Part shown: positions 5,720 through 62,984 of the stretch, in pieces
Numbering within the stretch: the first letter of the stretch is position 1
How the letters are laid out: each line of letters starts with the position of its first letter
Assembly (NCBI RefSeq): GCF_000350525.1
Contig: NZ_AOCN01000022.1
Span: 310,001 to 374,000, forward strand
Direction of reading: 5' to 3'
Length of the DNA: 64,000 nt
From: Leucobacter salsicius M1-8
GTDB lineage: Bacteria > Actinomycetota > Actinomycetes > Actinomycetales > Microbacteriaceae
Position numbers and translations under genes: made by a program
Notes under the pieces: generated by a model
What the model was told of the DNA's origin: nothing
The model's input: only the letters and a program-made list of their open reading frames with translations
Databases searched by the model: none

Positions 5720-5729
5720 GATCCGGATC
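5720..5729. repeat. GATCCGGATC palindrome, intergenic copy
   Basis: One of 14 copies of this 10-bp palindrome in the window, and one of three outside genes. Here the flanks extend it to a perfect 12-mer TGATCCGGATCA (5719-5730), directly after the pheT terminator. See the finding on this motif. Confidence 0.85.
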
Positions 5730-5753
5730 AGCATTGCCGAGCTCCCGCATTTC

Positions 5754-5781
5754 TTGACGGCCTCGCGTGCGGGCGTACGCT
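5754..5781 (+). promoter_or_regulatory. Sigma-70-type promoter, leaderless start
   Basis: TTGACG (5754-5759) and TACGCT (5776-5781) are separated by 16 bases. The -10 box ends 6 bases before the ATG at 5788, so transcription should begin at or next to the start codon. Confidence 0.6.
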
Positions 5782-5787
5782 GAGGGC

Positions 5788-6534
5788 ATGAGAATCGCCA
5801 TTGCGGGTGGAACCGGAGTTGTGGGGCGTCACGTGGATCGGCTCGCGCGGCTGGCCGGCGACGACGTGGTTGTCCTGGCACGGTCACACGGCATCGACCT
5901 TGTGAGCGGTGAGGGGCTGAACCTCGCCGCGGTAGACGTGGTGATCGACGTGTCGGGCCCGGGCAAGGGTGACCACGGCGGCCCCGTCGCGTTCTTTGAG
6001 CGGGTCACCACCAACCTGCTCAACGCCGAGGAAGACGCGGGGGTGGGACACCACGTGGCGCTGTCCATCGTGGGGGCGGCGAAGATCAACACAGGGTACT
6101 ACGCGGGGAAACGGGCCCAGGAAGACCTGGTGGCGGCGGCCATGGCCGAGTGGACGATCCTGCGGGCCACCCAGTTTTTTGAGTTTGCCGAGCAGGTCGC
6201 CCGGCCGTTTGGGCCGTGGGTCGTGGCGCCCAAGGTCCGGTCCCAACCGATTGCGGCGGCGTCGGTGGCGGCCGAATTGCTGCGGCTGGCTCGCTCCGCG
6301 GTGGCGGGCAATCACGAGGCGCACGGGGTTCACGAGATTGCTGGGCCGCACGAGCGAGGGATCGCCGACCTGCTGCGTGAACTCATGGGTGCCCGCGCCG
6401 ACGCTCGTCGAGTGCTGGAGCTTCCCTTGCCTGGTCGGTTCGGCAGGGGACTGCGTGACGGATCTATTCTGCCTGGCCCCGCGGCCCAGCTTGACGATGT
6501 GACGTTTGAGACGTGGCTAGAAGCGGCACGCTAA
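5788..6534 (+). CDS. NAD(P)-binding NmrA/SDR-like protein
   Basis: A 248-aa atypical short-chain dehydrogenase. The Rossmann nucleotide motif GGTGVVGRHV is at the N terminus, and a YYAGKRAQEDLV segment (YxxxK) lies near residue 105. It resembles NmrA/NAD(P)H quinone-reductase-like or 3-beta-HSD-type epimerase proteins; the substrate cannot be read from sequence. The ATG at 5788 is preferred over an upstream frame extension because the -10 box TACGCT lies 6 bases before it. It converges on the VOC gene at 6565. Confidence 0.75.
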   Translation: MRIAIAGGTGVVGRHVDRLARLAGDDVVVLARSHGIDLVSGEGLNLAAVDVVIDVSGPGKGDHGGPVAFFERVTTNLLNAEEDAGVGHHVALSIVGAAKINTGYYAGKRAQEDLVAAAMAEWTILRATQFFEFAEQVARPFGPWVVAPKVRSQPIAAASVAAELLRLARSAVAGNHEAHGVHEIAGPHERGIADLLRELMGARADARRVLELPLPGRFGRGLRDGSILPGPAAQLDDVTFETWLEAAR

Positions 6535-6539
6535 GACAC

Positions 6540-6555
6540 GAGCCAGCGCTGGCTC
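6540..6555. terminator. 16-bp palindrome between convergent genes
   Basis: GAGCCAGCGCTGGCTC is a perfect palindrome in the 30-bp gap between the convergent genes ending at 6534 and 6565. It is followed by further GGCTCT repeats. There is no T run, so a bidirectional terminator role is inferred from position only. Confidence 0.35.
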
Positions 6556-6564
6556 TGGCTCTGG

Positions 6565-6999
6565 CTACTCCGCTGGCGCCGGTGGTGAGCAGCTAAACAT
6601 ACACGGCACCCCGAATCGGTCGGTAAGCATGCCAAAGGTGTCGCCCCACGGCGCCTGTGCAAGCGGCTCGCGAACTTCTCCACCCTCGACGAGGCCGTCC
6701 CAGATCGCCTGCACACGGCCCAGATCGTCGCCCGATACGCACACCGAATGCCCGCCCACCGAGGCGTCAGGGGCTGCCTCCATTGACGCGGGGTAATCGG
6801 CCGCCATGAGCGTGAGCCCGTCATTGGTTTCTAGCTGGCCGTGCATCACCTTGTCGCCCTCGTCGTCTGCCCCCATCATTCCCGGGATCGAGTCGTAGCG
6901 CATGATCTCGAGTTTGCCTCCGAGCACCCCGTGATAATGCTCAAGGGCGGCACGCGCCTGGCCGTGAAAATTGAGGTACGGGTTCAAGCGAAGTGTCAT
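6565..6999 (-). CDS. VOC family protein (PhnB/YjdN-like)
   Basis: A 144-aa single-domain vicinal-oxygen-chelate (glyoxalase/bleomycin-resistance fold) protein of the PhnB-like group: it starts with LNPYLNFHGQARAALEHYHGVLGG and ends with WGDTFGMLTDRFGVPC. Members of this group have varied or unknown functions. The ATG at 6999 has a GGGGAG Shine-Dalgarno on the minus strand. It is divergent from a second VOC gene at 7199, separated by a 199-bp promoter region. Confidence 0.8.
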   Translation of the reverse strand: MTLRLNPYLNFHGQARAALEHYHGVLGGKLEIMRYDSIPGMMGADDEGDKVMHGQLETNDGLTLMAADYPASMEAAPDASVGGHSVCVSGDDLGRVQAIWDGLVEGGEVREPLAQAPWGDTFGMLTDRFGVPCMFSCSPPAPAE

Positions 7000-7198
7000 G
7001 ATGACTCCCCATCTTTCGTTTCGTGGACTGCAGTATGCGCAGAATAAATGCATCCCAGTGTGCGCCTGAATGCGCGCCGAGACAAGGGGGACAGGGGATT
7101 TTCTTCCGCGCCTCGCGAGAGTATTCTGGGCAGCGGACGCGACGGTGACGAGGCCTTCGCGAATGGACGTGCAGACACAGCCGATTGCTGGAGGAATC

Positions 7199-8884: not shown

Positions 8885-10416
8885 CCGTATTGCACCACGT
8901 TCGGGTCTACAAGAGCGAGGAACCCCTGGCCAAAGAAGACCAGCTCGCCTGGAAGATCGCTGAGGTCGCCGCCGACCCCGTGGCCGTCGACGCCGACGTC
9001 GCCGACATGATCATCAACCGCATCATCGACAACGCGGCGGTTGCCGCGGCCTCGCTCGCCCGGGGGCCAATCGTGGCTTCGCGCGCCCAGGCGCTCGCGC
9101 ACCCAATTTCGCGCGGGGGATCCGGATCAACCATCTTTGGCCTCGATGGATCCCGGGAGGCTCACCGCTCGAGCCCCGAGTGGGCGGCCTGGACCAACGG
9201 CGTCGCGGTGCGCGAGCTGGACTATCACGACACCTTTCTTGCGGCCGAGTACTCGCACCCGGCCGATAACATTCCGCCGATCCTCGCGGTCGCCCAGCAC
9301 GTCGGGGCCGACGGGCTCGCGCTCATGCGCGGCATCGCGACGGGATACGAGATCCAAATGGACCTCGTGCGGTCGATCTGCCTGCACAAGCACAAGATCG
9401 ACCACATCGCGCACATCGGGCCGTCCGCCGCGGCGGGCATCGGCACCATGCTCGGGCTCGATGTCGAGACCATCTACCAGGCCGTGAGCCAGGGGCTGCA
9501 CACGACGACGACCACGCGACAGAGCCGCAAGGGCGAGATTTCGACGTGGAAGGCGCACGCCCCGGCATTCGCGGGCAAGATGGCGGTCGAGGCGGTGGAT
9601 CGCGCGATGCGCGGCCAGACCTCGCCGAGCCCCATCTACGAGGGGGAAGACGGGGTGATCGCGTGGCTGCTCGACGGGCCCGGCGCCTCCTACGACGTGC
9701 CGCTGCCCGCGGCAGGCGAGGCGAAGCGCGCGATTCTCGATTCGTACACGAAGGAGCACTCGGCCGAGTACCAGGCCCAGGCGCTCATCGACCTGGCCCG
9801 CAAGCTGCACGGGGCCCACCCCGAGTTGGTAGACCCCACAAACGTCGCCGGCATCGTGATCCATACGAGCCACCACACGCACAACGTGATCGGTTCGGGG
9901 GCAAACGATCCGCAGAAGTATGACCCGACGGCCACGCGCGAGACCCTCGACCACTCGATCCCGTACATCTTCGCGGTCGCGCTGCAAGACGGCGGCTGGC
10001 ACCACGTCGATTCCTACACCCCCGAGCGAGCGGGGCGCGCCGACACGGTCGCGCTGTGGCACAAGGTCACGACGGCAGAGGATCTCGAATGGACGCGTCG
10101 ATACCACTCCGAGGACCCCGCAGAGAAGGCGTTCGGCGGACGCGTCGAGATCACCCTCGTCGATGGATCAACGATCACCGATGAGATCGCTGTTGCCGAT
10201 GCACACCCGCTTGGAGCGCGGCCGTTTGTGCGCGAGCACTACATCGCGAAGTTTCGCCTGCTCGCCGAGCCGGTGCTCGAGCCCGCCGAGACCAAACGAT
10301 TCCTCGACCTCGTGCAGCGCCTACCCGAGCTGACGAGCGACGAGGTACGCGAACTCAATATCGTGGCGCGACCGGGCCTCATCGACCCGTCGGCTGGCCC
10401 GAAGGGACTCTTCTGA
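8881..10416 (+). CDS. prpD: 2-methylcitrate dehydratase
   Basis: A 511-aa MmgE/PrpD-family dehydratase converting 2-methylcitrate to 2-methyl-cis-aconitate in the methylcitrate cycle. Family landmarks are [20 protein letters not shown] near 115-135 and the [17 protein letters not shown] segment near 330. It is coupled to the GntR gene upstream (ATGA) and to prpB downstream (TGATG). A GATCCGGATC copy at 9119 encodes GSGS in the N-terminal part. Confidence 0.93.
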
Positions 10417-13435: not shown

Positions 13436-13445
13436 GATCCGGATC
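13436..13445. repeat. GATCCGGATC palindrome, intergenic copy
   Basis: Non-coding copy of the repeated palindrome, 14 bases after the inverted repeat and about 150 bases before argC. Confidence 0.85.
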
Positions 13446-13592: not shown

Positions 13593-14675
13593 ATGACTTA
13601 CAGCGTTGCGGTTGCGGGAGCCTCGGGGTACGCGGGAGGCGAGCTGCTGCGACTGCTCGCGGCCCATCCCGAGTTCGAGATCAAGACGGTGACCGGGCAC
13701 TCCAGCGCGGGGCACCCGCTCATCGAGTCGCAGCCGCACCTGCGATCGCTCGCGCACCTGACGCTCGGGGCCACGACCCCCGAGGTGCTCGACGGCCACG
13801 ACATCGTGTTCTTCGCGCTGCCCCATGGCGCCTCGGGCGCGCTCACCGCGCAGCTCAAGAACGTGCGCCTCGCGGTCGACTGCGGGGCCGATCACCGCCT
13901 CGAATCGAGTGACGACTGGGCCGCGTTCTACGGCGGCGAACACCACGAAGCGTGGAGCTACGGCGTGCCCGAGCTCCTTCGATCCGGATCAGCGCAGCCC
14001 GCATCGGGCGCAGCGGGAGCGCAGCACAAGCAGCGCGACCTGCTCGTAGGCGCGACCCACATCGCGGCCCCGGGCTGCAACGCGTCGACCGTCGCGCTCT
14101 CGCTTGCCCCCGGCATCGCGGCCGGTGTGATCGAGGCCGAGGACATCGTCTCGGTGCTCGCGGTCGGCCCCTCGGGAGCGGGCAAGGCAGCGAAGACCCA
14201 CCTGCTCGGTGCCGAGCTGATGGGCACCGCCAACCCCTACGCAGTCGGCGGTACGCACCGCCACATCCCCGAGATCCAGCAGGGACTGCGCAACGCCGGC
14301 GCCCGGGTCGATCCGACAATCAGCTTCACGCCCGTGCTCGTGCCCATGAGTCGCGGCATCCTCGCGACCTCGACCGCGCGGCTCACCCCCGGCACGACCG
14401 CCGCACAGGTGCGCGCCGCGTGGGAAGAGGCCTACGCCGACGAACCCTTCGTGCACGTGCTGCCCGAGGGCGTGTACCCGCGCACCGCCGACACCCTGGG
14501 GGCGAACACCTGCCTCATGGGTGTCGCCGTCGATGAGGCCGCGGGCCGCGTGGTCGTCGTCGCGGCGCTCGACAACCTCGCCAAGGGCACGGCCGGTGCC
14601 GCGATCCAGTCGGCGAACATCGCGCTCGGCCTGCCCGAGACCACGGGGCTCGGCGTCAACGGCGTCGCGCCGTAA
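13593..14675 (+). CDS. argC: N-acetyl-gamma-glutamyl-phosphate reductase
   Basis: A 360-aa NADPH-dependent reductase, third step of arginine synthesis. It has the Rossmann motif GASGYAGGE, active-site Cys162 in AAPGCNAST, and the HRHIPEI segment. The ATG at 13593 has AAGGG 7 bases upstream. Between YGVPEL and the catalytic loop there is a stretch rich in Ala, Gly, Ser and Gln (about residues 130-148) that looks longer than usual for the family; it contains a GATCCGGATC copy at 13981. First gene of argCJB. Confidence 0.95.
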
Positions 14676-22008: not shown

Positions 22009-24572
22009 ATGCGGAGACCTTTGGGGGCCCGATCAATGAGCTGAGGCGCGATTTTGGGGACGATCCGTGGCGGCTCGTGCTGCACGGTATTGATCCGGAT
22101 CTCGCGGGCCAAGATGAAACCCTGCTTGCGCTCGGCAACGGGTATCTCGGGGTGCGTGGCAACCATGAGGAGGGGCTGCCGCTGGGCAGCCACGGCACGT
22201 TCATTAACGGGTTTCATGAGACCTGGCAGATTCAGCACGCTGAGAATGCCTACGGGTTTGCGGAGCAGGGGCAGACGATCATCAATGCCCCCGACGCGAA
22301 GACCATCCGCATCTACGTCGACGATGAGCGGCTCAACCTGCGGTCGGCCGACATCCTCGACGTCACTCGCATTCTCGATCTCCGCTCGGGCACGCTGACC
22401 CGCTCGCTGCTGTGGCTGACGCCGACTGGCAAACGGGTGCGGGTCGAGACCCGACGCATGGTGTCGTTTGCCTCCCGGCACCTCATGACCCTGGAGATGC
22501 GGATCACCGTGCTCGACGCCGACGCGGAGCTGACGGTCTCGAGCTTGCTCATCAACCGGCATGATCTGGGGCGCGTGCGCACCGAGCAGCCCGAGCCAGC
22601 AGAGGGCATCACGGATCCGCGCAAGAGCGAGCACCTCACCGAGCGAATTCTGCACGCCGGCCCCGCCGAGCATGTGGGCGACCGGAGCATCGTGAGCTAC
22701 CGGGCGGCCATGTCGGGGATCGGGCTCGGCGTGGGCGTTGACCACGAGTTTGACCCCGGGGATCCCGTGGAGGCGGACGCCTGGCGGCGCAGTGTTGAGC
22801 GTGCGCCGGATCGTGTGCGGCACGTGTTTCAGGGGGTGGCGCGCGCGGGCGCCACTGTAAAACTGGTGAAGACGGTGGCCTACCATTCCTCGGACACAGC
22901 CGCCCTGTCGGAGCTCGTCGATCGATGCGCGCACACGCTGGCGCAGGCGCGAGCCGAGGATCCCGAGCACCGGTGGGACGCCCAGCGGAAGTTCCTCGAT
23001 GACTTCTGGGACCGTAGCGACGTGCGTGTTGACGCCGAGCCGGGCATCCAGCAGGCGGTGCGCTGGAACCTCTTCCAGCTTGCTCAGGCCTCGGCTCGGG
23101 CCGATGGGCGGGGCATAGCGGCGAAGGGGCTGAGCGGCTCGGGATACAGCGGGCACTATTTCTGGGATTCAGAGATCTACGTGCTTCCGTTTCTCACGTA
23201 TACGACGCCGTTGTGGGCGCGCAACGCACTGCGCTCGCGCGAGCAGATGCTGCCGCTTGCTCGAAAGCGGGCGACGACGCTCAACGAAGACGGGGCACTG
23301 TTTCCCTGGCGCACGATTAACGGTGAGGAAGCGAGCGCCTACTATGCGGCGGGTACCGCGCAGTACCACATCAACGCCGACATCACCTTCGCGCTCGCAC
23401 GATACATCGCAGCGACAGAGGACCTCGAATACCTCGTGACGGGGGCCTGCGACATTGCGATTGAAACGGCCCGGTTGTGGCACTCGCTCGGCTTCTGGCG
23501 CACTGACCCGGGCGGCGAAGCCAAGTTTCACATCCACGGCGTCACCGGACCCGATGAGTACACGACGGTTGTGAACGACAACCTGTTCACCAATACGATG
23601 GCGCGGTTTAACCTGCGCTACGCGGCCGAGGTCGTGCGGAGCCTGGCGGCGGAAGCGCCCGAGGCCTATGCGCTGCTCGCGACGAGGCTCGGTATTGAAA
23701 CGTTCGAGGTGTCAGATTGGGAGGAAGCCGCGCGTGGAATGTCCATTCCCTACTCAGATGAACGCCGCATTCATCCGCAGGACGCCCACTTCCTCGAGCG
23801 CGAGGTGTGGGACCTCGCGGCGACGCCGCCCGAGCAGAAGCCACTGCTGCTGCATTTTCACCCGCTCGTGATCTACCGATTCCAGGTGTTGAAGCAGGCC
23901 GATGTTGTGCTTGCACTGCTGCTCGCGAGCGACGAGTTTGGGCGAGCTGAGAAGCAGCGTGACTTTGAATACTATGACGCCCTCACCACGGGGGACTCGA
24001 CCCTGTCGGGGGTGGTGCAGTCCATCATGGCCGCCGAGGTGGGCTACCCCGACCTGGCCTACCGATACTTCGATCATTCGCTCCGTGTCGATCTCGACGA
24101 CCTGCATCACAACTCGGCGGACGGCGTGCATGTTGCGTCGACGGGCGGGGTCTGGATGATGCTGGTGCAGGGATTCGCGGGAATGCGCGATGCGGGCCGA
24201 AAGCTCGCCTTTGACCCGAGGCTGCCGCAGCACTGGAACGCCCTGGAGTTCTCGCTCGCGTGGCGTGGCGCGCGGCTGCGGGTGACGCTGACGCGGGAGT
24301 ACATCGAGTTTGCCGTGCGCAGCGGCGACGCTGCAGTGACGGTGGAGGTGCGCGGGGAGCCCGTGCAGGTCGCGCCTGGTGCGCCCGTATCGGTTCGACT
24401 CGCCGACCACGGGCCCAACCTCGGTCCGTTCACGGGACTGTCTGCTGGCATGCTGCCCCGCGAGGGGGACACCGGAGTGATTGCGACGCTCATGCCCGAG
24501 GTGCCCGCCGTAACCACCGTGATTCCGACGCGCCACCCCGGGAGGTCAGGCTCGGAGGAGCGCCAAGAGTAG
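22005..24572 (+). CDS. GH65 disaccharide phosphorylase
   Basis: An 855-aa family 65 glycoside hydrolase/phosphorylase: N-terminal beta-sandwich, linker, (alpha/alpha)6 barrel and a C-terminal beta sheet. The general acid is Glu518 in TGPDEYT; the phosphate-site region includes LSGSGYSGHYFWDSE near 370. The family covers maltose, trehalose, kojibiose and nigerose phosphorylases; the exact sugar cannot be told here. Together with the upstream mutase it gives glucose plus glucose-6-phosphate from an imported alpha-glucoside. Confidence 0.9.
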   Translation: MNAETFGGPINELRRDFGDDPWRLVLHGIDPDLAGQDETLLALGNGYLGVRGNHEEGLPLGSHGTFINGFHETWQIQHAENAYGFAEQGQTIINAPDAKTIRIYVDDERLNLRSADILDVTRILDLRSGTLTRSLLWLTPTGKRVRVETRRMVSFASRHLMTLEMRITVLDADAELTVSSLLINRHDLGRVRTEQPEPAEGITDPRKSEHLTERILHAGPAEHVGDRSIVSYRAAMSGIGLGVGVDHEFDPGDPVEADAWRRSVERAPDRVRHVFQGVARAGATVKLVKTVAYHSSDTAALSELVDRCAHTLAQARAEDPEHRWDAQRKFLDDFWDRSDVRVDAEPGIQQAVRWNLFQLAQASARADGRGIAAKGLSGSGYSGHYFWDSEIYVLPFLTYTTPLWARNALRSREQMLPLARKRATTLNEDGALFPWRTINGEEASAYYAAGTAQYHINADITFALARYIAATEDLEYLVTGACDIAIETARLWHSLGFWRTDPGGEAKFHIHGVTGPDEYTTVVNDNLFTNTMARFNLRYAAEVVRSLAAEAPEAYALLATRLGIETFEVSDWEEAARGMSIPYSDERRIHPQDAHFLEREVWDLAATPPEQKPLLLHFHPLVIYRFQVLKQADVVLALLLASDEFGRAEKQRDFEYYDALTTGDSTLSGVVQSIMAAEVGYPDLAYRYFDHSLRVDLDDLHHNSADGVHVASTGGVWMMLVQGFAGMRDAGRKLAFDPRLPQHWNALEFSLAWRGARLRVTLTREYIEFAVRSGDAAVTVEVRGEPVQVAPGAPVSVRLADHGPNLGPFTGLSAGMLPREGDTGVIATLMPEVPAVTTVIPTRHPGRSGSEERQE

Positions 24573-27998: not shown

Positions 27999-29762
27999 AT
28001 GCGCGACGATGCCCAGCAGACACCGCCGGAAGCCCAGGCAGCGGTGGTTGATGCTGTGCGCAGTGTGGTGTCTGACCGCACGGGAGTTTCGGTCACCGAT
28101 CTCGACGGAATCATCACGTTCGTCAACGATTGCTTCTGCGAGCGAAGCGGCTACTCCCGCGCCGAGCTCATCGGTGAAACCCACGAGAAGCTCGAATCGG
28201 GGATCCACCACCCCGCATTCTTTGCCGAGATGCGCGAGATCCTCGCCAGCGGCGGCACCTGGCGGGCGAATATGTGCAATCGCGCCAAGGACGGCAGCGA
28301 GTTCTGGGAGGATGTCACGATCGTCCCCACGATCGGGCCCGATGGGCTCCCCGAACGTTACGTCGCGATCCGGATCGAGCCAACGCTGCGGCACGCCGCG
28401 AACGAGCGAGAGATCTATCGGCTCGCTCACATCGATACCGTAACGGGGCTGCCGAACCGTGGCGCGCTGCTGCGCACCATCCTTGAATCTGCGGATCGAA
28501 GCTCGCCCCCGAAAAACTGTGGATTCCTTTCGGTGAGTATTGACGAGCACGCGACAGTCAACGACGCGTTCGGATTCGCAGTGGGTGACGAACTGTTGGC
28601 GGTGGCCTCGGCGCGGTTGCGCGCGCTTACGGGGGATCAGTCGCTCGTTGGACGTGTCGACGCGCACACCTTCGGCGTGCTGTTGCCCGACGCTGGCGGC
28701 TCAGAAGCGTGTGCCTCGCGCGCCTGCGCAGAGGTAGCGGAGCGGATTCGGCAGTCCTTCTCGGGGCCCATTGACCTGGGACCTGGGGTAAGTATTGAGG
28801 TCTCGGTCAGTATTGGTTTTGTGGTGTTCAGCTGTCACGTATTTGCTGCGCAGGGCATATTTGGCGCTGGGCAGGCGGATGAAGTGCTCAAGCGAGCCGA
28901 TGTTGCACGCAAGAGCGCAGTGCGGGCTGGCGGACTGCACCGGGTCAGGCAGTTCACTGAGTCCATGCTGGTGCAGGCGCAGGACCGCGCGCAGTTCGGT
29001 CACGAGCTGCGGCAGGCCGTGAAAATGGGGCAGCTTCGCCTACACGCGCAGCCGATCGTGGACGCGGATCGCCGCGTAGTCGGCGTAGAGGCGCTCGTGC
29101 GCTGGCTGCATCCCGAGCGGGGGCTCCTGATGCCCGACGAGTTCATTCCGCTCGCCGAACAGTCGGGCCGCGTTGTCGATGTCGGGGCGTGGGTGCTTGA
29201 TCGTGCTTGCGCAACACTCCAGGCATGGCAGAAATGCCCGAGCACGGCTGGCATCACCCTGTCGGTTAACCTAAGCGAGCACGAGATTCGCACCGCGGGA
29301 TTTGCCAAGCGGCTGCGCGAACGCGTCGAACACTACGGTCTCGCGCCCGGTAGCCTGCAGGTCGAGCTGACCGAGAGCACCTGGCACCGAGACGTTGAAT
29401 CGACAGCCGAACTCTTGCGGTCACTGCTCAGCGCCGGCGTGACGGCGTCGCTCGATGACTTTGGGACGGGGTACTCGTCGCTCAGCTACCTGCGCGATCT
29501 GCCCGTGCAGCAGCTCAAGATCGACCGGTCGTTTGTCTCGAGTGTGGCAAACGACCCGCGAGCAGTTGCGGTCACGCGGACCATCGTCGATCTCGGACGT
29601 ACATTTGGGCTGCAGGTCGTCGCGGAGGGGGTCGAAACCGAGGCGCAATTTGAGACGTTGCGGGTCATCGGGGTCGACGCGTTTCAGGGCTTCTTGTTCG
29701 CCCCCGCTCGGCCCATTGAGGAGCCGATCCTCGCCGGAATGTTACCGGACGCTGAGGCCTAG
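27999..29762 (+). CDS. PAS / degenerate GGDEF / EAL c-di-GMP phosphodiesterase
   Basis: A 587-aa protein without membrane segments. A PAS domain (about 20-125; ITFVNDCFCERSGYSRAEL) is followed by a GGDEF domain (about 145-300) whose active site is VDAHTF (220-225) in place of (L/V)GGDEF, so no cyclase activity is expected. The EAL domain (about 330-580) keeps EALVRW (Glu364), NLSEHEI, ELTES, DDFGTGYSSL, KIDRSFV and EGVET, so phosphodiesterase activity is likely. It starts 20 bases after tatB and overlaps the end of the convergent mrp by 21 bases. Confidence 0.9.
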   Translation: MRDDAQQTPPEAQAAVVDAVRSVVSDRTGVSVTDLDGIITFVNDCFCERSGYSRAELIGETHEKLESGIHHPAFFAEMREILASGGTWRANMCNRAKDGSEFWEDVTIVPTIGPDGLPERYVAIRIEPTLRHAANEREIYRLAHIDTVTGLPNRGALLRTILESADRSSPPKNCGFLSVSIDEHATVNDAFGFAVGDELLAVASARLRALTGDQSLVGRVDAHTFGVLLPDAGGSEACASRACAEVAERIRQSFSGPIDLGPGVSIEVSVSIGFVVFSCHVFAAQGIFGAGQADEVLKRADVARKSAVRAGGLHRVRQFTESMLVQAQDRAQFGHELRQAVKMGQLRLHAQPIVDADRRVVGVEALVRWLHPERGLLMPDEFIPLAEQSGRVVDVGAWVLDRACATLQAWQKCPSTAGITLSVNLSEHEIRTAGFAKRLRERVEHYGLAPGSLQVELTESTWHRDVESTAELLRSLLSAGVTASLDDFGTGYSSLSYLRDLPVQQLKIDRSFVSSVANDPRAVAVTRTIVDLGRTFGLQVVAEGVETEAQFETLRVIGVDAFQGFLFAPARPIEEPILAGMLPDAEA

Positions 29763-30893: not shown

Positions 30894-31461
30894 CGGTTCC
30901 TTCTGCGGCTGAAGCGCCGGGGGCCTTGCGGGCAGTTCGTGGTTCGTGGTTCGGGTGTTGATCCGGATCATCGGCCAGTTCAGCGAGCAGCGCCTTGAGC
31001 TCCGCCCGTACGAAATCGCGATCCGGCAAGTCCTTGAGCGCGAGCCGCAGCGCGACGACCTCGCGCGCGAGGAACTCGGTGTCGGCCAGGTTGCGTTCGG
31101 CGCGCTGCCGATCCTGCTCGATCTGCACGCGGTCGCGGTCGTCTTGCCGGTTCTGCGCGAGCAGGATCATCGGGGCTGCGTAGGAGGCCTGCAGCGACAG
31201 GATGAGGGTGAGTGCGGTGAACCCGAGCGCTGCTGAGTCAAACCGAAACTCTTCGGGGCCAATCGTGTTCCAGAGGAGCCAGGCCACACACACGAGCGTC
31301 AGGAACAGGAGAAACCAGGGAGTTCCCATGCCGCGGGCAATGCTCTCGGTCCAGCGGCCAAAGCGTTCATTGGTGCTGGCGTTGCCGGAGCCGCCGCGCG
31401 GGGTACGCACGCTGGTGGAGCGTGGCGCATCGAGCGCGCCGGGGCGCTTGAAGAAGCTCAT
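30877..31461 (-). CDS. DUF1003 membrane protein
   Basis: A 194-aa protein with two membrane helices in the DUF1003 core (GTPWFLLFLTLVCVAWLLWN and FTALTLILSLQASYAAPMIL), followed by QNRQDDRDR and a long charged helix. It always travels with mrp and the CBS gene in actinobacteria; the function is unknown. It overlaps its upstream neighbour by four bases. Confidence 0.9.
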   Translation of the reverse strand: MSFFKRPGALDAPRSTSVRTPRGGSGNASTNERFGRWTESIARGMGTPWFLLFLTLVCVAWLLWNTIGPEEFRFDSAALGFTALTLILSLQASYAAPMILLAQNRQDDRDRVQIEQDRQRAERNLADTEFLAREVVALRLALKDLPDRDFVRAELKALLAELADDPDQHPNHEPRTARKAPGASAAEGTDVAPH

Positions 31462-43942: not shown

Positions 43943-44995
43943 TTACTTGAGCAGCCGGCGCAGGGACTCGACTCGCGCAGCACCCGATGCGTCGAGCTCG
44001 CCGTTCTCGATGGCGAGGTTGAGTTCGCAGTCTCGAGCGTCCTCCTGATGGGTGCAGCCGCGCGGGCAAGCCTCGATGAGCTCTGCGAGATCGGTGAATC
44101 CGCGCAGGATCCCCTCGCTCGTGACGTGACCGAGCCCAAACGAGCGCACGCCCGGGGTGTCGATGACCCAGCCGGTATCGCCATCGCTCGCGTTCGGTGT
44201 GCGGGCGCGCAGCGCGACCGACGATGACGACGTGTGCCGGCCGCGGCCTGTCACCACGTTGACGTGACCGATTGCGCGGTCCGCCTCGGGCACGAGCGCG
44301 TTAATGAGCGTCGATTTGCCGACCCCCGAGTGGCCCACGAATACCGTCGTCTTGCCCGCCAGGGACGCTCGAATCTCGTCGAGCGGCCAGGCGTCGTAGG
44401 CCGAGCGGAAGACCGGCACCTCAAGCGCAGAGAAGTGCGCGAGAAACGGATCCGGATCAGCAAGGTCGGTCTTCGTGATGCAGATCAGCGGCTGAATTCC
44501 GGCGTCGTACGCGGCCACGAGGTACCGGTCCACGAGCCGCACGCGCGGTTCGGGGTTCGCCGCCGCCACGACGATCAGCATCTGATCGGCGTTCGCGACC
44601 ATGACGCGCTCGACGCGGTCGGAGTCATCGGCGCTGCGGCGCAGCAGGGTCGCGCGCTCGTCGACGCGCACGATGCGGGAGAGTGACCCCTCGTCGCCCG
44701 AGGTGTCGCCCACGAGCTGCACGCGGTCACCGATGACGATGGGGGTGCGACGCAGCTCGCGCGCCCGGGCCGCGGTGACGTCGCGCTCGCGCGCGTCAGC
44801 CGGATCCGAGTCCTCGGGCACGAGCACGGAGTAGCGCCCGCGATCCACGCCCGTGATCATGCCGGTGATGGACTCGGCATGCTCGGGGCGCCGCTTGGTG
44901 CGTGGCTTGTTCGCCTTGGGGTTCGGGCGAACACGGAGCCGCTCAGCGTAGTCCGCGTAGGGGTCTTCGCTGTCGTCGGGGGTGAGCCAGCTCAT
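43943..44995 (-). CDS. rsgA: Ribosome small-subunit GTPase RsgA
   Basis: A 350-aa circularly permuted GTPase acting late in 30S maturation. An N-terminal OB fold is followed by G4 (TKTD), then G1 (GHSGVGKST) and G3 (DTPG), then a zinc knuckle CPRGCTHQEDARDC. It is cotranscribed with aroA, two bases after its stop. A GATCCGGATC copy at 44449 encodes part of ADPDPF. Confidence 0.94.
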   Translation of the reverse strand: MSWLTPDDSEDPYADYAERLRVRPNPKANKPRTKRRPEHAESITGMITGVDRGRYSVLVPEDSDPADARERDVTAARARELRRTPIVIGDRVQLVGDTSGDEGSLSRIVRVDERATLLRRSADDSDRVERVMVANADQMLIVVAAANPEPRVRLVDRYLVAAYDAGIQPLICITKTDLADPDPFLAHFSALEVPVFRSAYDAWPLDEIRASLAGKTTVFVGHSGVGKSTLINALVPEADRAIGHVNVVTGRGRHTSSSSVALRARTPNASDGDTGWVIDTPGVRSFGLGHVTSEGILRGFTDLAELIEACPRGCTHQEDARDCELNLAIENGELDASGAARVESLRRLLK

Positions 44996-48165: not shown

Positions 48166-49065
48166 TCAGGTCAGCAGGCTGCGAAGGGCCGCGGCCAGCT
48201 CGGCCGGGCAGGCCTCGTGCAGATTGTGCGGGCCCGCGAGGCTGAGCACTCGGCTCTGGGGGAGCCGCTCCCGCCACTCGGCCGCGAGCTCTTCGGACAC
48301 CATGCCCGACTCAGCGCGCACGAGCGACACCGGCATCGGCAACCCGGCCAACACGTCCCACAACGGCGCGAGCGCGCCCTCGGGGCTCGCGGCTGACAGT
48401 CCGTCGAGGTGCGCGAAGTGGTGCGTCCACTCCAGTCGGCCGTCTTCGCTGCGGCGCGTGTTCAGCGCGACGCCGCGCGTCAGTGCGGCTCGGTCCGACC
48501 CGATACCAAACGCCACCGCACGGTCGACGATCTCGTCGACGGTCGCAAACGAGCGCTGCCCCTGAACGAACTCGGCCACGGCGCTTGCGCCATCAGTGGG
48601 GCGTACCCCCGGGGTGATGTCGACGAGAACAAGATGCGACACCCGGCTCGGAATTGCGGCCGCGACAAGCGCCGCCGTCAGCGCCCCGAGCGAATGCCCC
48701 ACGAGCGCAAACGGCGCGGGCGGAGACTGCTCCGGGGCGAGCTGGGCGAGCGCCGGTACGAGGTCGCTCGCCAGCGTCACCGGGCCATAATCGGCGTCCT
48801 CGCGCCATGAGCTGCGGCCGTGCCCCGGCAGATCGACTGCGAGTGCGGGCAGCGCGAGCGAGATGAGCATCGGGTCAAAACTATGGGCGTTGAGACCGGC
48901 TCCGTGCAGCGCGACAATGCGCAGGGCATGATCCGGATCGAACCTCAGCCCAGCCACCTCACGGCCGTCGGTGAGTGGGGCCGTGACCCGCCGAACCGTG
49001 GGCGCCTGCGCGCCGACACGTGCGGCGTCTGCCGCGAGAAACCGAAACTCGTCGTCGATCATCAT
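48166..49065 (-). CDS. Alpha/beta hydrolase
   Basis: A 299-aa alpha/beta-hydrolase: oxyanion region ALHGAGLNAHSF, nucleophile elbow GHSLG and a C-terminal His in GPHNLHE. The substrate is unknown. TAGGCT at 49072-49077 lies 6 bases before the ATG at 49065, supporting that start. A GATCCGGATC copy at 48930 encodes part of FDPDH. Confidence 0.88.
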   Translation of the reverse strand: MMIDDEFRFLAADAARVGAQAPTVRRVTAPLTDGREVAGLRFDPDHALRIVALHGAGLNAHSFDPMLISLALPALAVDLPGHGRSSWREDADYGPVTLASDLVPALAQLAPEQSPPAPFALVGHSLGALTAALVAAAIPSRVSHLVLVDITPGVRPTDGASAVAEFVQGQRSFATVDEIVDRAVAFGIGSDRAALTRGVALNTRRSEDGRLEWTHHFAHLDGLSAASPEGALAPLWDVLAGLPMPVSLVRAESGMVSEELAAEWRERLPQSRVLSLAGPHNLHEACPAELAAALRSLLT

Positions 49066-54134: not shown

Positions 54135-54998
54135 GTGACTGATCGCTGGGATTCTTTGGGGCCAAACCAGGTGTACGCGGGCGACAACCTGCCGATTTTG
54201 AGGTCGATGCCCTCGGAGTCATTTCAGCTGATCTACCTGGATCCGCCCTTCAATACTGGGCGCGAGCGACACACCGAGCGGGTGCGCGGCGTGCGCACCG
54301 AGGTGGATGAAGGCGGTCGGCTCGGCTTTCGCGGCCAGGGCTACGCGGTCACCCGCGAGCGCACGATCTCCTTCGACGATCGCTTTCGCGACTACTGGAA
54401 CTTTCTCGAGCCGCGCATCGAGGAAGCCTGGCGACTGCTCGCACAGGACGGCACGCTCTACCTGCACCTCGACTACCGCGAGGTGCACTACGCCAAGGTG
54501 ATCCTCGACGCGATGTTCGGGCCTGAGTGCTTCATCAACGAGATCATCTGGGCCTACGACTACGGCGGGCGCACCAAGAAGCGCTGGCCCACGAAGCACG
54601 ACAATATTCTGGTCTATGCCAAGGATCCGGATCGCTATTTCTTTAATGCCGAAGCGGTCGACCGCGAGCCCTACATGGCGCCGGGGCTGGTCACACCGGA
54701 GAAGGCGGCGCTCGGCAAGCTGCCGACCGATGTGTGGTGGCACACGATCGTGTCGCCGACGGGCAAAGAGCGCGTGGGGTACCCGACGCAGAAGCCGATC
54801 GGTATTATGCGGCGCATCATTCAGGCATCGTCGCGGCCGGGGGACTGGGTGCTTGATCCGTTTGCGGGCAGCGGCACCACGGGGGCTGCGGCCGAGGAGC
54901 TGTACCGACGGTTCGTGCTGATCGACGACAATCCCGAGGCGGCGAAGGTCATGCTGCGACGCTTCACCGACCCCGAGATGCACTTCATCGTTCAGTAA
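54135..54998 (+). CDS. Solitary DNA methyltransferase (N6-A/N4-C, beta type)
   Basis: A 287-aa amino-methyltransferase. Catalytic motif IV DPPF is at 36-39 and SAM motif I DPFAGSGTTG at 241-250; catalytic before SAM is the beta-group order, shared with CcrM. No restriction enzyme, specificity subunit or mobile element is next to it, so it is probably an orphan housekeeping methylase. TACTAT (54123-54128) lies 6 bases before the GTG. It contains a GATCCGGATC copy at 54624. Confidence 0.88.
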   Translation: MTDRWDSLGPNQVYAGDNLPILRSMPSESFQLIYLDPPFNTGRERHTERVRGVRTEVDEGGRLGFRGQGYAVTRERTISFDDRFRDYWNFLEPRIEEAWRLLAQDGTLYLHLDYREVHYAKVILDAMFGPECFINEIIWAYDYGGRTKKRWPTKHDNILVYAKDPDRYFFNAEAVDREPYMAPGLVTPEKAALGKLPTDVWWHTIVSPTGKERVGYPTQKPIGIMRRIIQASSRPGDWVLDPFAGSGTTGAAAEELYRRFVLIDDNPEAAKVMLRRFTDPEMHFIVQ

Positions 54999-56024: not shown

Positions 56025-57449
56025 ATGGGTAGTGCAGGCGAGTTTCCGATTTCGCTCGACCGAACGGGCGGGGCAACGCTGCCCGCTCAGGTCGCGGCGG
56101 CGTTGCGCGAGGCCATCGACACCGACACTCTGCGCCCGGGGGAGCCCCTGCCCTCCACGCGCGACCTCGCCGAGCGGGTGGGCGTCGCCCGGGGTGTGAT
56201 CGTCGCGGCATACGAGCAGCTCGTGGCCGAGGGCTACCTGCTCGCGGGGCACGGTCGTGGCACGGTCGTGCACCCGCGGCTCGATCGTGCGCGCGCGGCC
56301 CAGGGCGTCGGGGATCCGGATCAGCATGCGCCCGAGACCCGCGCCGTTGCCGGCCCGCTCGCGCCCGGTACACCGCTCACCGATGCGGTCGATCGCCCCG
56401 CGTGGCGATCGGCGTGGCGCCACGCCGCCACCCTGGCCCACCGCTCAGCGCCCGAGCTGGGCGACGCCAGGCTGCGGGAGGAGATCTCAGATCACCTGCG
56501 GCAGATGCGCGGTACGCGGCGCTCGCCCAGTGACGTGATCGTGACCGCGGGTGCGCGCGATGGGCTCTCGCTGTTACTGACCGCGCTCGGCACGACCCGT
56601 GGGCGCGCGCTCGTGGTGGGGGTGGAGGACCCGGGGTACCCGTCGCTGCGGCAGGTGGCCGCGCGGCACGGTGCCCGCATCGTGGCCCTGCCCGTGGACG
56701 CGGACGGGCTCGTCACGGGGGAACTGCCGAACGGTGTGCTCGACGTGATGATCGTGACCCCGAGCCACCAGTACCCGCTGGGCGGATCACTGCCGCTCGC
56801 CAGGCGGCGCGAGCTGCTCGAATGGGCGATCCGCACGGGAGTGGTGATCGTGGAGGACGACTACGATTCCGAGCTGCGGCACGTCGGCAGCCCGTTGCCC
56901 ACGCTCGCCGCGCTCGACGATCCCGCCACCGGCACCGTGGTGTTGCTCGGAACGTTCTCAAAGACGCTCTCGCCCGCGCTGGCGGCCGGGTTCATGCTCG
57001 CGCCAGCGGGGCTGCGACGACTCATCGAACCGGTGCGGTTCGACCTGGGCGGCCCCGTCTCCGCAGTCGTGCAGGCCGCGCTCGCGCGCTACCTGGCCGA
57101 GGGAGAGCTGCGCCGCCACATCGCGCGCATGCGCCGGCGGTACGCGCGCAGGCGTGACCTGCTGTCTGAACGTCTAGCCGGCCAGGCCGGGTGGCGCGTG
57201 CGGCCCATGAGCGGAGGGCTGCACGCCGTGATCGAGCTCGTGCCCGGGGGCGCCGCCGAGGAACGTCGAGTACTCGAGCGTGCGGCGGCTGCTGGGCTGG
57301 GTGCCGTTGGGCTCAGTAGTTACTGGGAGGCGAACAGCGTCGCAGGATCGACGGGCCTCGTCATCGGCATGGGTGGGCCCGACGATGCGGGGTTTGATCG
57401 GGCGCTCTCGGTGCTGCGCGGCGTGCTGGCTGACGCGGAACGCAGCTAG
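56025..57449 (+). CDS. pdxR: PdxR, MocR-family regulator
   Basis: A 474-aa fusion of a GntR winged helix (about 18-85; PLPSTRDLAERVGVARGVIV) and an aminotransferase fold with PLP-lysine Lys313 in GTFSKTLSP. It should sense PLP and control pdxS. The ATG at 56025 is chosen; the open frame before it overlaps the operator. Its stop overlaps the convergent DUF488 gene. A GATCCGGATC copy at 56313 lies in the linker. Confidence 0.9.
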   Translation: MGSAGEFPISLDRTGGATLPAQVAAALREAIDTDTLRPGEPLPSTRDLAERVGVARGVIVAAYEQLVAEGYLLAGHGRGTVVHPRLDRARAAQGVGDPDQHAPETRAVAGPLAPGTPLTDAVDRPAWRSAWRHAATLAHRSAPELGDARLREEISDHLRQMRGTRRSPSDVIVTAGARDGLSLLLTALGTTRGRALVVGVEDPGYPSLRQVAARHGARIVALPVDADGLVTGELPNGVLDVMIVTPSHQYPLGGSLPLARRRELLEWAIRTGVVIVEDDYDSELRHVGSPLPTLAALDDPATGTVVLLGTFSKTLSPALAAGFMLAPAGLRRLIEPVRFDLGGPVSAVVQAALARYLAEGELRRHIARMRRRYARRRDLLSERLAGQAGWRVRPMSGGLHAVIELVPGGAAEERRVLERAAAAGLGAVGLSSYWEANSVAGSTGLVIGMGGPDDAGFDRALSVLRGVLADAERS

Positions 57450-58671: not shown

Positions 58672-58681
58672 GATCCGGATC
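58672..58681. repeat. GATCCGGATC palindrome, intergenic copy
   Basis: Non-coding copy of the repeated palindrome in the 76-bp gap between convergent genes, just before the hairpin at 58690. Confidence 0.85.
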
Positions 58682-59089: not shown

Positions 59090-59091
59090 GA

Positions 59092-60268: not shown

Positions 60269-60325
60269 CGGCACCGCATCGTCAAGGTGCGGCGCTCCTC
60301 AGCCCCGGCGCGCGAATCTATTGCG

Positions 60326-60661
60326 CTACGGGGTGTGCTCCTGGGAGCGCAGCTCGGGGTGCCGCTCGAGAAAACCCGCGATGAACCAGCACGACGCCTC
60401 GATTTGTCGACCCCGCACCTGATCGCCTGTGAGCGCGCGGCGCGCGAGCAGGGCAGCAAGGCCGGTGCCGCGCAGGCTGGGGCTGACGGACGTGTGATCG
60501 AAGTCAACTGAGTGATCGCCCCGCAGCGAGTAGTGGGCCTCACCCACGAGCTGACGATCGGCCCCTGCACCCTGATATACGACATACCGCGAGGCCTTGG
60601 GTTCGTGCGCGATGTGAAAGCCCGCGGAGGCCGCTTGCGCTTCGTCGAGAAATCTGGCCAT
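60326..60661 (-). CDS. Small GNAT (YjdJ/Gcn5-like)
   Basis: A 111-aa minimal acetyltransferase of the YjdJ/NATD1 type, with the acetyl-CoA loop SPSLRGTGLAALLARRAL. The substrate is unknown. TAAGGT (60668-60673) lies 6 bases before the ATG at 60661, supporting that start. Confidence 0.82.
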   Translation of the reverse strand: MARFLDEAQAASAGFHIAHEPKASRYVVYQGAGADRQLVGEAHYSLRGDHSVDFDHTSVSPSLRGTGLAALLARRALTGDQVRGRQIEASCWFIAGFLERHPELRSQEHTP

Positions 60662-60708
60662 ACCCACACCTTACGCGCGCATCCTGTGGCACGGCTATCC
60701 TCGGACGT

Positions 60709-61371
60709 GTGCAAAAGAAGTTTCAAACCCGCGTACTCACGCTCGCCATCGTCGCAACCGCGGGGCTGCTGCTGGCCGGGTGCAGCGGGCAGGGTGGGCC
60801 GCCCGAGGCTGCGCCCGAGCCCGAGGTGCTGTCGGCCAGCGAAGCCGGCGGAATCTACCTCGATGCGATATGCCCGGTGAACGCGGCGTGGGACGCTGCC
60901 GACGTTGAACTCGAACGGCTGCGGCTCACCCTGTCGCGCGGTGAAGACGACACTCGGCGCTTCGCGGCTGCCATGAACGAGGTTGCTGCGGCGAGCAAGA
61001 CCGCGGCCCAGGAGCTCGACCCCAAGACGCTCGACGAGGCCGGGCACGCGTGGCCGAAGACGGCGATCTCCGATATCAAGGCCGTGCAGAAGACCCTTAC
61101 AGACGATCAGAAGCAAGCGGCCCGCGTGGCAAAGCTGACTGGCAGTGAGGTCTTGAACTACGCCTGGCAGGGCTCCGAGGAAGTCGGGGCCGCTGCGAGC
61201 GCCGCCCGCGAGGCCCTCGCGCTTCCCGCCGATGGGCAGAGCGCCTGCGCGCAGTGGCAGGAACAAATCGAGGCCGAAAAGGCCGCAGCAGAAAAAGCCA
61301 AGGCAGACAAGGCTGCAGCCGAGAAAGCTCAGGCCGACAAATCCAACGACAAGACGGGCACCAACAAGTGA
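60709..61371 (+). CDS. Lipoprotein with Ala/Lys/Glu-repeat tail
   Basis: A 220-aa lipoprotein: lipobox LLAGC with Cys25, a Pro/Glu linker, a helical body with two cysteines (ICPVNAAW and SACAQW) and a C-terminal run of EKAAAEKAKADK-type repeats. No family was recognised. TATCCT (60696-60701) lies 7 bases before the GTG. It overlaps the next gene by four bases (GTGA), so the two are coupled. Confidence 0.78.
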   Translation: MQKKFQTRVLTLAIVATAGLLLAGCSGQGGPPEAAPEPEVLSASEAGGIYLDAICPVNAAWDAADVELERLRLTLSRGEDDTRRFAAAMNEVAAASKTAAQELDPKTLDEAGHAWPKTAISDIKAVQKTLTDDQKQAARVAKLTGSEVLNYAWQGSEEVGAAASAAREALALPADGQSACAQWQEQIEAEKAAAEKAKADKAAAEKAQADKSNDKTGTNK

Positions 61372-62984
61372 CAAACGACCCCCAGCAGATCGCCCTGCGA
61401 GTCGAACGCGCGGTGCGCACCGCCGCCCGCGCGGGCAACCGACTGCTTGCGAGTGGCACGGCCCTCGTGCTCGTCGAGCACGAGGGGGCTCGAGAGGCGC
61501 TGCTCGTGGCTCTCGCGCGCATGGGCGTGCGCGCCGTAAGTGCCGGATCCCCCGCAGACTTCGTCTTCGTTGATGGCGGGGCGGTCGCCCACATCGGGGA
61601 GCAGCACGCAGCCCATGCCTCGAGCGCCGCACACACCCTGCCCGCGGTCATCGTGGGGCTCGACGGCTCGGTCGCCTCGCCGCGCGGGGAGGATCCCGCC
61701 GCCCGCATTACCTGGGCGGAGCGCGGTATGCCCGCCACCGCGGTCCTTGCGCGCGAATTGGCGCGAGGCATGGTGGCTGGCGCTGAGGCGCACACCGACA
61801 CCAAGCCACGCGTCGCCGTCAGCCTCGTGCTCGAGCCCAAAACCGCGGCCTTCACACGCACGCTCGCCGAGGCGGGATGCGAGGTTGCCGTGTTTAGTGC
61901 CGTGTCTGAGACCGACCCTGTGATCGCGCGTGAGCTTGCCGACGACGGACGCGTGGCCGTGTTCGCGCCGCACGAGCCCGTCACCGAAGCCGAAGCACGC
62001 ACGGTCGACGCGCAGCACGCGGCAGGCATTCTCGACTGGGCCCCCGACTACCTGATCGACGATGGGTCGCATCTGATTCGCCTCGCCCACACCGAGCGCC
62101 CCGCAGCGCTCAAACGGCTGCGTGGGGCTGCGGAGGAAACGACGAGTGGCGTGCGCCCGCTCCGGGAGATGGCGGCCGCGGGCGAGCTGCGCATTCCGGT
62201 GATCGCCGTCAACGACGCCCGCACGAAGACGGGCTTCGACAACCTCATCGGCACGGGCCAATCGTGCGTCTTCGCCATCGCCGACCTGCTTGACACGGCC
62301 ACCTACCGCGGCGTGCGCGGCACGCGCTGGGCCGTGATTGGGTACGGCCCTGTCGGCGTGGGAACGGCGCGATTTGCGGCGGCACTGGGCGCGGGTGTGA
62401 CGGTCGTTGAACACGATCCGGTGCGTGCGCTAGCCGCGCTGCATGACGGTTTCGAGGCTCGCGCCATGTCGGAGGCAATCGCCGAGGCCGATGTGGTCGT
62501 GAGCGCGACGGGCGTGTGGCACACAATCACCGAGGCGCACTTCGCCCTCATACGGCCGGGCACCGCGGTCGCGGTTGCGGGCGGCATCGACGACGAGCTC
62601 GCCCTCGACTCGCTGCGTGCGAGCGGCTGGACTGACACGCCCGCGAGCACCACTCCCGGCGTCGACGAGTGGCGTGCGCCCGGAGCCGACCGCGGCCCGA
62701 TCGTGCTCGCGTGGGGCGGTGGCGTCAACTACACCACCAGCGAGGGCAACCCGATCGAGGTGATGGATCTCTCGTTCGCGACGCAGCTCGCGGCGCTCGC
62801 CCGGCTCATGCGCGAGCATCCCGCGCCAGGGGTGCACGCGCTGTCGGCCGAGGAGGAACGGGCCGTGGCGCGCGCGGCGCTCACCACGCGCGGGGCCAGT
62901 GCTGATCCGGATCCTGAGCAGCTGCGCGCGGGCGGCGCAGCGCAGCCGTGGCGCGTGCATCGCTACCGCGCCCAGGCTGAGTGA
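61368..62984 (+). CDS. Divergent S-adenosylhomocysteinase homologue
   Basis: A 538-aa protein of the AdoHcyase superfamily. Landmarks: EETTSGV (256-262), NDARTKTGFDN with Lys287 and Asp291 (the oxidation-site Lys/Asp pair), and the NAD motif GYGPVGVG (325-332). The N-terminal 200 residues and the C-terminal end (VHRYRAQAE in place of KPDHYRY) are poorly conserved. It may hydrolyse SAH or a related thionucleoside such as S-inosylhomocysteine. It follows a lipoprotein and precedes an amidohydrolase. Confidence 0.8.
   Translation: MTNDPQQIALRVERAVRTAARAGNRLLASGTALVLVEHEGAREALLVALARMGVRAVSAGSPADFVFVDGGAVAHIGEQHAAHASSAAHTLPAVIVGLDGSVASPRGEDPAARITWAERGMPATAVLARELARGMVAGAEAHTDTKPRVAVSLVLEPKTAAFTRTLAEAGCEVAVFSAVSETDPVIARELADDGRVAVFAPHEPVTEAEARTVDAQHAAGILDWAPDYLIDDGSHLIRLAHTERPAALKRLRGAAEETTSGVRPLREMAAAGELRIPVIAVNDARTKTGFDNLIGTGQSCVFAIADLLDTATYRGVRGTRWAVIGYGPVGVGTARFAAALGAGVTVVEHDPVRALAALHDGFEARAMSEAIAEADVVVSATGVWHTITEAHFALIRPGTAVAVAGGIDDELALDSLRASGWTDTPASTTPGVDEWRAPGADRGPIVLAWGGGVNYTTSEGNPIEVMDLSFATQLAALARLMREHPAPGVHALSAEEERAVARAALTTRGASADPDPEQLRAGGAAQPWRVHRYRAQAE

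Follow-up and report, generated by a model that had tools for sequence, protein, structure and literature searches.

GATCCGGATC, a lineage-specific iterated palindrome in Leucobacter

The closest described counterparts of the element reported here are the highly iterated palindromes (HIPs). In the parts of Elhai (2015, PMC4390886) considered here, HIP1 of cyanobacteria is given as GCGATCGC, HIP density is generally ~1000-2000 per Mb, the one-base deviants of HIPs concentrate at the first and last positions, and in every HIP genome a methyltransferase is predicted to target some part of the HIP, with a matching methyltransferase named for three exceptional HIP strains. The alternate HIPs in these parts of the source (GGCGCC, rCCGGy, GCsGC, and GGGATCCC) are 75-100% GC; replacement HIPs are at least 75% GC, the exception being TCGATCGA (50%), which never replaces HIP1. 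We examined GATCCGGATC, a 10-bp palindrome formed by the overlap of two GATCCGG 7-mers, in a 64-kb stretch of Leucobacter salsicius M1-8 (NZ_AOCN01000022.1, positions 310,001 to 374,000; hereafter the window), in the genome that supplied the window (G000; 3,185,418 bases in 28 contigs), and in other genomes including a second Leucobacter, G005. GATCCGGATC is a lineage-specific iterated palindrome.

Like HIP1, GATCCGGATC is short, palindromic, GATC-containing, genome-wide, and limited to certain lineages; like the alternate HIPs, it is a lineage-specific palindrome found in few genomes, with CCGG shared with rCCGGy and GATCC shared with GGGATCCC. The HIP1-like behavior proposed in the original prediction, which was made from the sequence of the window, holds for dispersal, lineage limits, and conservation, and strong genome-wide over-representation of a palindrome is likewise a feature of the HIP class. 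It does not hold for density (128 per Mb vs 1000-2000 per Mb), GC content (60%, 6 of 10 letters), or the pattern of one-base deviants: those of GATCCGGATC peak at positions 2/9, and by ratio the ends come next. Unlike for HIP1 and the alternate HIPs, a matching methyltransferase was not identified for GATCCGGATC in the searches described below, and its tie to a lack of TCC/GGA words has no counterpart in the considered parts of the HIP source. Because density, GC content, and deviants depart from the class and the methyltransferase link is unproven, GATCCGGATC is not filed here as a HIP, though it behaves like one; its preference for DNA under low constraint, its lineage limitation, and its conservation fit a HIP-like site.

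Other dispersed or avoided words are also relevant. DNA uptake sequences of the Pasteurellaceae and Neisseriaceae are denser than GATCCGGATC, and Chi, KOPS, and AIMS are over-represented short words with strand bias; unlike the latter, GATCCGGATC is a palindrome that cannot be oriented, and its isolated half-sites (GATCCGG) were used equally on both strands in the stretches counted. In restriction-site avoidance, words are avoided at synonymous sites, with an exempt context, whereas the word avoided here is an asymmetric 3-4-mer with graded flanks, and no modification enzyme exclusive to G000 and G005 was detected in the families searched. According to the portion of PMC1939737 considered here, DNA uptake sequences are over-represented in non-coding DNA, unbiased in orientation, and not palindromes; GATCCGGATC is similarly a dispersed short word enriched in non-coding DNA without orientation bias, but it is palindromic.

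Size and dispersal of the excess

All 14 exact copies of GATCCGGATC that had been listed for the window were found at their given starts. Markov models of orders 0, 1, 2, 3, and 4 gave expectations of 0.07, 0.17, 0.09, 0.07, and 0.37 copies, and 100 dinucleotide shuffles of the window averaged 0.22 copies and never exceeded 2; orders 5 and 6 gave 4.0 and 11.3, with the motif already inside those models. GATC itself did not prove to be the unit: of 16 pairs of GATC spaced by 2 in the window, 14 were GATCCGGATC. In the whole genome, 409 exact copies were counted, compared with 0 for a control in which the pattern was reversed but not complemented. A comparison with third- and fourth-order Markov models, of the kind named beforehand as a refuting test, gave 61 copies in 454 kb of contig C22 versus 0.51 (order 3) or 2.15 (order 4) expected. 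These Markov expectations are too low, and ratios of ~100-fold inflated, because parts of GATCCGGATC are themselves rare in the genome. When proteins and codon usage were kept by a synonymous-codon shuffle over our own gene calls (60 shuffles), the 49 coding copies in the same 454 kb compared with a mean of 2.3 (maximum 5 in 60), or ~21-fold, and the 31 coding copies in G005 compared with 1.6. The same shuffle gave 5 observed versus 1.1 expected in G045, 6 versus 1.3 in G043, 8 versus 0.7 in G012, and 3 versus 0.5 in G049. The excess of GATCCGGATC is about 20-fold in G000 and G005 and milder, on small counts, in the rest of the genus.

Protein selection had been set aside as an explanation in the original prediction, and the occurrence of copies in three codon phases, the intergenic copies, and the synonymous-codon shuffle all agree. 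Two scripts of our own assigned 47 or 49 of the 61 copies of the C22 sample to coding DNA; by the first gene caller, 31 copies encode Asp-Pro-Asp, 7 Ser-Gly-Ser, and 9 Ile-Arg-Ile, while 13 are intergenic and 1 lies at a gene edge. Both gene strands carry coding copies. For the window, the earlier tally of these three peptides (8/2/1) was revised to 7/2/2 by our gene calls, with one of the two Ile-Arg-Ile copies sitting where two gene calls overlap; the three phases, the use of both gene strands, and the three intergenic copies stood unchanged. The density of GATCCGGATC between genes was 2.4- to 3.3-fold that in coding DNA (two gene callers), and among the 13 intergenic copies none lies between divergent genes, 5 lie between convergent genes, and 8 between genes of the same direction.

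The spacing of copies was Poisson-like (coefficient of variation 0.94; variance/mean 1.05 per 20 kb). Half-sites standing alone were equally used on the plus and minus strands in two stretches of each genome (19/23 and 61/54 in G005; 98/103 and 36/39 in G000), as counted where GC skew had the same sign in the compared stretches and with the origin not located. Clustering of the palindrome and strand preference of its half-sites were not supported by these counts, and the chromosome-organisation signal proposed earlier is disfavored. Half-sites did not gather around palindromes either (14 vs 15.6, 0 vs 1.4, and 1 vs 4.3 expected). The flanks were variable, as had been claimed; A was favored at +1, and unrelated positions such as +10 deviated almost as much as +4. 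One-base deviants in G000 were most in excess at positions 2/9 (33 vs 1.2 expected), with 5 versus 0.5 at 1/10, 20 versus 2.8 at 3/8, 3 versus 2.1 at 4/7, and 12 versus 5.1 at 5/6; those in G005 also peaked at 2/9 (19 vs 0.3), with 1/10 second (5 vs 0.2). These expectations are low, as the background was taken with the motif masked.

Conservation of copies and distribution among genomes

G005 appears to be the nearest relative of G000 in the set, judged by the identity of P0001 (93% vs at most 81%), a solitary methyltransferase considered below, and by shared traits. The alignable part of the sample, 251 kb, is ~81% identical between the two genomes. In codon alignments, the coding copies of G000 were identical in G005 at 12 of 26 sites, and 12 of 22 were identical in the reverse direction; the local control, based on 10-mers in the same phase no more than 300 bases from the site, predicted 2.9 and 2.7, respectively, and 12 was reached in 0 of 20,000 resamplings in each direction. 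Nucleotide alignments gave 11 of 29 and 11 of 23. Conservation at synonymous positions, a check that had been called for earlier, was also evident: where amino acids were conserved, 12 of 17 sites were identical, compared with 25%, 23%, and 18% among the controls of the three phases. Unshared sites mostly differed by at least 2 bases, with a single mismatch in 1 of 14 non-identical codon-aligned sites, and numerous coding copies fall in gap-rich or variable stretches. GAT codons within sites were better conserved (25/32) than elsewhere (513/1033). The other self-complementary overlap, CCGGATCCGG, was identical between the two genomes in only 1 of 10 and 1 of 4 cases, and 7-mers bearing TCCG were conserved at 0.111 and 0.230. 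The half-site GATCCGG was rejected as the conserved unit, with isolated copies kept at about the average 7-mer rate. Since neither CCGGATCCGG nor the isolated half-site is specially conserved, the unit that is kept is, judging from these alignments, the complete symmetric 10-bp site.

Within the window, where the copies have no assigned strand, the intergenic ones lie at 5720..5729, 13436..13445, and 58672..58681. Coding copies identical in G005 are those at 9119..9128 (Gly-Ser-Gly-Ser), 22092..22101 (Asp-Pro-Asp-Leu), 36891..36900 (Asp-Pro-Asp-Arg, in an hrpA-like helicase gene on the minus strand), and 54624..54633, which is within the P0001 gene; the copy at 30960..30969, in the overlap of two opposed gene calls at their starts, is identical by nucleotide alignment. 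In place of the copies at 44449..44458 (Asp-Pro-Asp-Pro, coding on the minus strand), 56313..56322 (Asp-Pro-Asp-Gln, in a gap-rich variable stretch), and 62904..62913 (Asp-Pro-Asp-Pro, close to a C-terminus), G005 has GACCCCGAGC, GAGCCAGTCG, and GACGCAGATC, respectively. The coding copies at 28367..28376 (Ile-Arg-Ile) and 48930..48939 (Asp-Pro-Asp-His, minus strand) are without an aligned G005 counterpart, and the coding copy at 13981..13990 (Arg-Ser-Gly-Ser) lies in a stretch that is altered or gapped in the four aligned relatives.

Across 54 Leucobacter genomes, some incomplete, GATCCGGATC was counted 409 times in G000, 265 times in G005, and 0-129 times in the other 52. The largest other count among 396 genomes drawn from the order was 144, in a genome of 9.4 Mb, and among 398 genomes drawn from the family, 10 being Leucobacter, the maximum in the 388 outside Leucobacter was 59. 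The 78 loci (1.37 Mb) of other actinobacteria fetched as P0001 relatives held 1 copy versus 2.1 expected. Word counts drew on ~541 kb of the 3,185 kb of G000 and ~431 kb of G005; the samples were 200-220 kb for each of four congeners, 100 kb for G047, and 20-44 kb for the rest. In these samples, GATCCGGATC reached 134 per Mb in G000, 88 in G005, and 15-45 in the four congeners; the order-2 observed/expected ratio was 87 in G000, 110 in G005, and 0.4-8.2 in the other 38 sampled Leucobacter, the expectations being rough where the sample was 20 kb. Copies per Mb increased with GC across 40 Leucobacter (rho 0.42). Eight genomes (G007, G010, G014, G042, G054, G055, G057, and G058) had 0-5 palindromes each, and the four of them that were sampled (G014, G042, G055, and G058) had the lowest GC measured (0.575-0.617). 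Two further observations concern other members of the genus: six copies of GATCCGGATC are packed into 412 bases of G004 (C1:492443-492854), perhaps as a local repeat, and a different GATC palindrome, CGGGATCCCG, which recalls the GGGATCCC named by Elhai, is over-represented in 200 kb each of G012 and G049 (15 vs 2.8 and 21 vs 2.3; L163-L182). Among the publications listed by the literature searches, none describes an iterated palindrome from Leucobacter or another actinobacterium, and none of the listed papers containing GATCCGGATC as plain text concerns genome word counts.

A background poor in TCC/GGA and the exemption of GATCCGG

The excess of GATCCGGATC stands against a background poor in TCCG/CGGA, which the original prediction missed. 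Relative to four congeners, G000 and G005 are most depleted in TCC/GGA among 3-mers and in TCCG/CGGA among 4-mers, the latter at 3257 per Mb (mean of strands) in G000 and 1735 in G005 compared with 6165-7698 in the congeners. The shortage of TCC/GGA was present in three codon phases, in both orientations, and in intergenic DNA. It was extreme at synonymous third positions: among xTN codons before CG, those ending in C made up 5.8% in G000 and 1.6% in G005 (21.6-36.9% in congeners), and among xCN codons before GA, those ending in G made up 14.1% and 4.2% (26.8-35.3% in congeners); xCN codon usage before GC, GG, or GT was ordinary. Where aligned congeners agree on CGGA, the word was retained at 14% in G005 (n = 317) and 23% in G000 (n = 331), compared with 58/55% for CGGT, 44/43% for CGGC, 36/38% for GGGA, and 71/69% for CGCA in G005/G000. 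Lost CGGA was replaced by several different bases. This pattern resembles selection against the word or its unbiased removal, not deamination alone; cytosine deamination as the sole cause was rejected, since replacements track codon preference. Within TCC/GGA, CGGAC/GTCCG was especially scarce in these samples (L039-L078), with CGGAC at 0.09 (G005) and 0.36 (G000) of the congeners' level. A milder lack was found in other Leucobacter (TCCG observed/expected 0.53-0.95), and GTCCG was also low in 20-40 kb samples of G048, G047, G016, G003, and G020. In G005 (L059-L078), TCCG density drops toward palindromes: it is 3764 per Mb at distances above 3 kb and 1429 per Mb at distances up to 100 bases. 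Around the palindromes of G000 it is flat.

GATCCGG is exempt from this lack, but its one-letter neighbors are not. Counted per Mb on both strands, GATCCGG occurred at 945 in G000, 602 in G005, and 790-1075 in congeners; GATCCGC occurred at 256, 120, and 780-1030 and GATCCCG at 324, 185, and 770-1700, respectively. About half of all TCCGG in G000 and G005 was preceded by GA, as against a share of 0-0.28 in the other sampled genomes except G047 (0.42 in 20 kb; 71/248 in 100 kb); in other groups of actinobacteria the share was 0.02-0.14.

Neither the full lack nor the exemption is seen in three restriction-modification stretches of G000 (on contigs C25, C12, and C15): their TCCG observed/expected ratios were 0.72-0.80, they hold 0, 1, and 0 palindromes, and GATCCGG makes up 5/49, 6/45, and 4/40 of TCCGG. 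One such stretch of G005 resembles them (ratio 0.66, 0 palindromes, 5/27). The C24 stretch, by comparison, looks adapted (0.59, 4 palindromes, 20/47). Genes of G000 without a G005 counterpart in the sample were altered to almost the same degree as the others (102 vs 121 palindromes per Mb). We read the word change as a slow process across the whole genome, and the unadapted restriction-modification islands would be recent. Two modification/restriction gene pairs of G000 (L204:4425-9037 and L205:7142-11868), which we take to be type III-like, lie on stretches with a word usage unlike that of the host, and in G005 (L206:7407-9321) a C5 methyltransferase adjoins a 308-aa gene that has no NCBIfam match and may be its restriction partner.

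Candidate readers and competing explanations

Proteins that might read GATCCGGATC were sought among DNA methyltransferases. For the methylation signal suggested earlier, a Dam-type or C5 enzyme was not supported: G000 had no hit to PF00145 (C5) or PF02086 (D12, Dam-type), though it has further DNA methyltransferases (PF01555/PF02384), and a search of 54 genomes for PF00145, PF02086, PF01555, PF02384, and PF07669 revealed no methyltransferase common to G000 and G005 only. A C5 methyltransferase as shared reader was rejected since G005 has one and G000 none. Vsr was found in 5 of 54 Leucobacter genomes but in neither of the pair, so that G000 is without both Vsr and a C5 methyltransferase and G005 has the methyltransferase without a Vsr hit, which does not fit Vsr-driven enrichment. 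Other candidates were set aside as well: (i) two 700-aa PF01555 proteins of G000 had no counterpart among the PF01555 hits of G005; (ii) the 940- and 929-aa Eco57I/N6-type proteins, here labeled MmeI-like, share just 34% identity, and for each a closer relative occurs in low-palindrome genomes; and (iii) a 235/258-aa TSPPY-type protein of both genomes had similar hits, as judged by eye, in at least 11 more genomes. A megablast comparison of 20 kb of the window with plasmids gave 12 partial matches, none informative.

P0001, a solitary amino-DNA-methyltransferase (PF01555) encoded at 54135..54998 on the plus strand of the window, was also weighed as the palindrome reader and was not supported. 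Its best PDB match was RsrI, ahead of entries named just Methyltransferase and then CcrM. It was found in 33 of 54 Leucobacter genomes (72-100% identity) and not found in 21, some of which are incomplete; at least 584 stretches in other actinobacteria were confirmed to hold relatives, of which the best 80 were kept, and beyond Leucobacter the protein remains well conserved as far as Rothia and Cryobacterium. Twenty residues are common to G000 and G005 against other Leucobacter, including positions 46, 78, 145, and 171, at which the genus is otherwise nearly constant. A change of P0001 specificity in this pair is thus conceivable from the residues.

We favor the reading that GATCCGGATC is a recognition- or modification-linked site working like a HIP, with a putative reader, and that it is kept by selection or biased repair; its probability is put at a little over one in three. 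Some enzyme or protein of the clade would read DNA by sequence, and GATCCGG, best as the symmetric double site, would be the form that this reader accepts, modifies, or needs. Other TCCG/GGA words would be harmful or removed, and over many generations selection or biased repair may have purged them while GATCCGG was kept and added. Because of the GATCCGG exemption, purging of TCCG/GGA and the palindrome could be coupled, such that one DNA-reading system acts against TCC/GGA and accepts only GATCCGG, with GATCCGGATC as its cognate or protected site and avoidance and over-representation as one mechanism; this further step is tentative and rather unlikely, and the two may be separate, coincident traits. 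Several results weigh against the favored reading. No reader protein was found among the candidates above, and the presence of P0001, rejected as the cause, does not predict palindrome excess (28 genomes with it vs 10 without, p = 0.15; p = 0.76 at GC 0.64-0.72). Single CCG codons within sites were conserved no better than elsewhere (11/19 vs 866/1491), and isolated GATCCGG was conserved at 29/131 and 28/86, about the average 7-mer rate of 0.247. The lack is graded by flanking bases, with TGGAA at ~1 of the congeners' level. In 40 Leucobacter genomes, palindrome density increases with TCCG observed/expected (rho 0.36, p = 0.02), so that a shortage of TCCG is not by itself enough to produce the palindrome, and G005, with the stronger lack, holds fewer palindromes than G000. 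Finally, the type I stretch C14 of G000 (TCCG observed/expected 0.47, GATCCGG 10/19, 0 palindromes) and the C5 stretch of G005 (0.43, 14/33, 4 palindromes) look adapted.

That the palindrome excess does not follow the TCCG lack across the genus also suits a different explanation, in which GATCCGGATC binds an abundant dimeric protein (nucleoid-associated, repair, or recombination) and the shortage of TCC/GGA words is a compositional trait of its own. The retention of the full palindrome at 12/26 and 12/22 sites, next to 1/10 and 1/4 for CCGGATCCGG and roughly average half-sites, is what such a protein might leave behind, as is the A favored at +1, though +10 deviates nearly as much as +4. The exemption of GATCCGG would then require a separate cause, and with 47 of 61 copies intragenic, 0 of 13 intergenic copies between divergent genes, and Poisson-like spacing, we consider this explanation possible but somewhat unlikely. 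More doubtful is a functionless molecular drive, in which biased repair or conversion (the methyl-directed mismatch-repair model of HIP) or biased uptake multiplies the word. The higher density of copies under low constraint (2.4- to 3.3-fold between genes, with many coding copies in variable stretches) and the excess of near-copies at positions 2/9 would be expected of it; yet neither genome has Vsr, missing copies are mostly at least 2 bases off, with single-mismatch states in 1 of 14, and CGGA losses go to several bases and not to one repair product. It is very improbable that the excess is a compositional by-product, in which codon, dipeptide, and short-word biases mimic over-representation. 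The ratio does fall from ~120-fold (order 3) to ~21-fold once proteins and codon usage are preserved, owing to the scarcity of TCCG in G000 and G005, but a ~20-fold excess remains, copies occur in three phases and between genes, their conservation is far above that of local controls, and the exact 7-mer is exempt while its one-letter neighbors are scarce.

GATCCGGATC provides a HIP-like case outside the cyanobacteria that bears on why such palindromes multiply. As its high copy number is confined to 2 of 54 Leucobacter genomes, its rise can be delimited, and gene-content subtraction offers a way to look for the gene responsible. Furthermore, the two genomes combine a strong genome-wide lack of a 3-4-base word with the exemption of one 7-mer, a pairing which suggests that iterated palindromes can be remnants left after their near-copies were purged.

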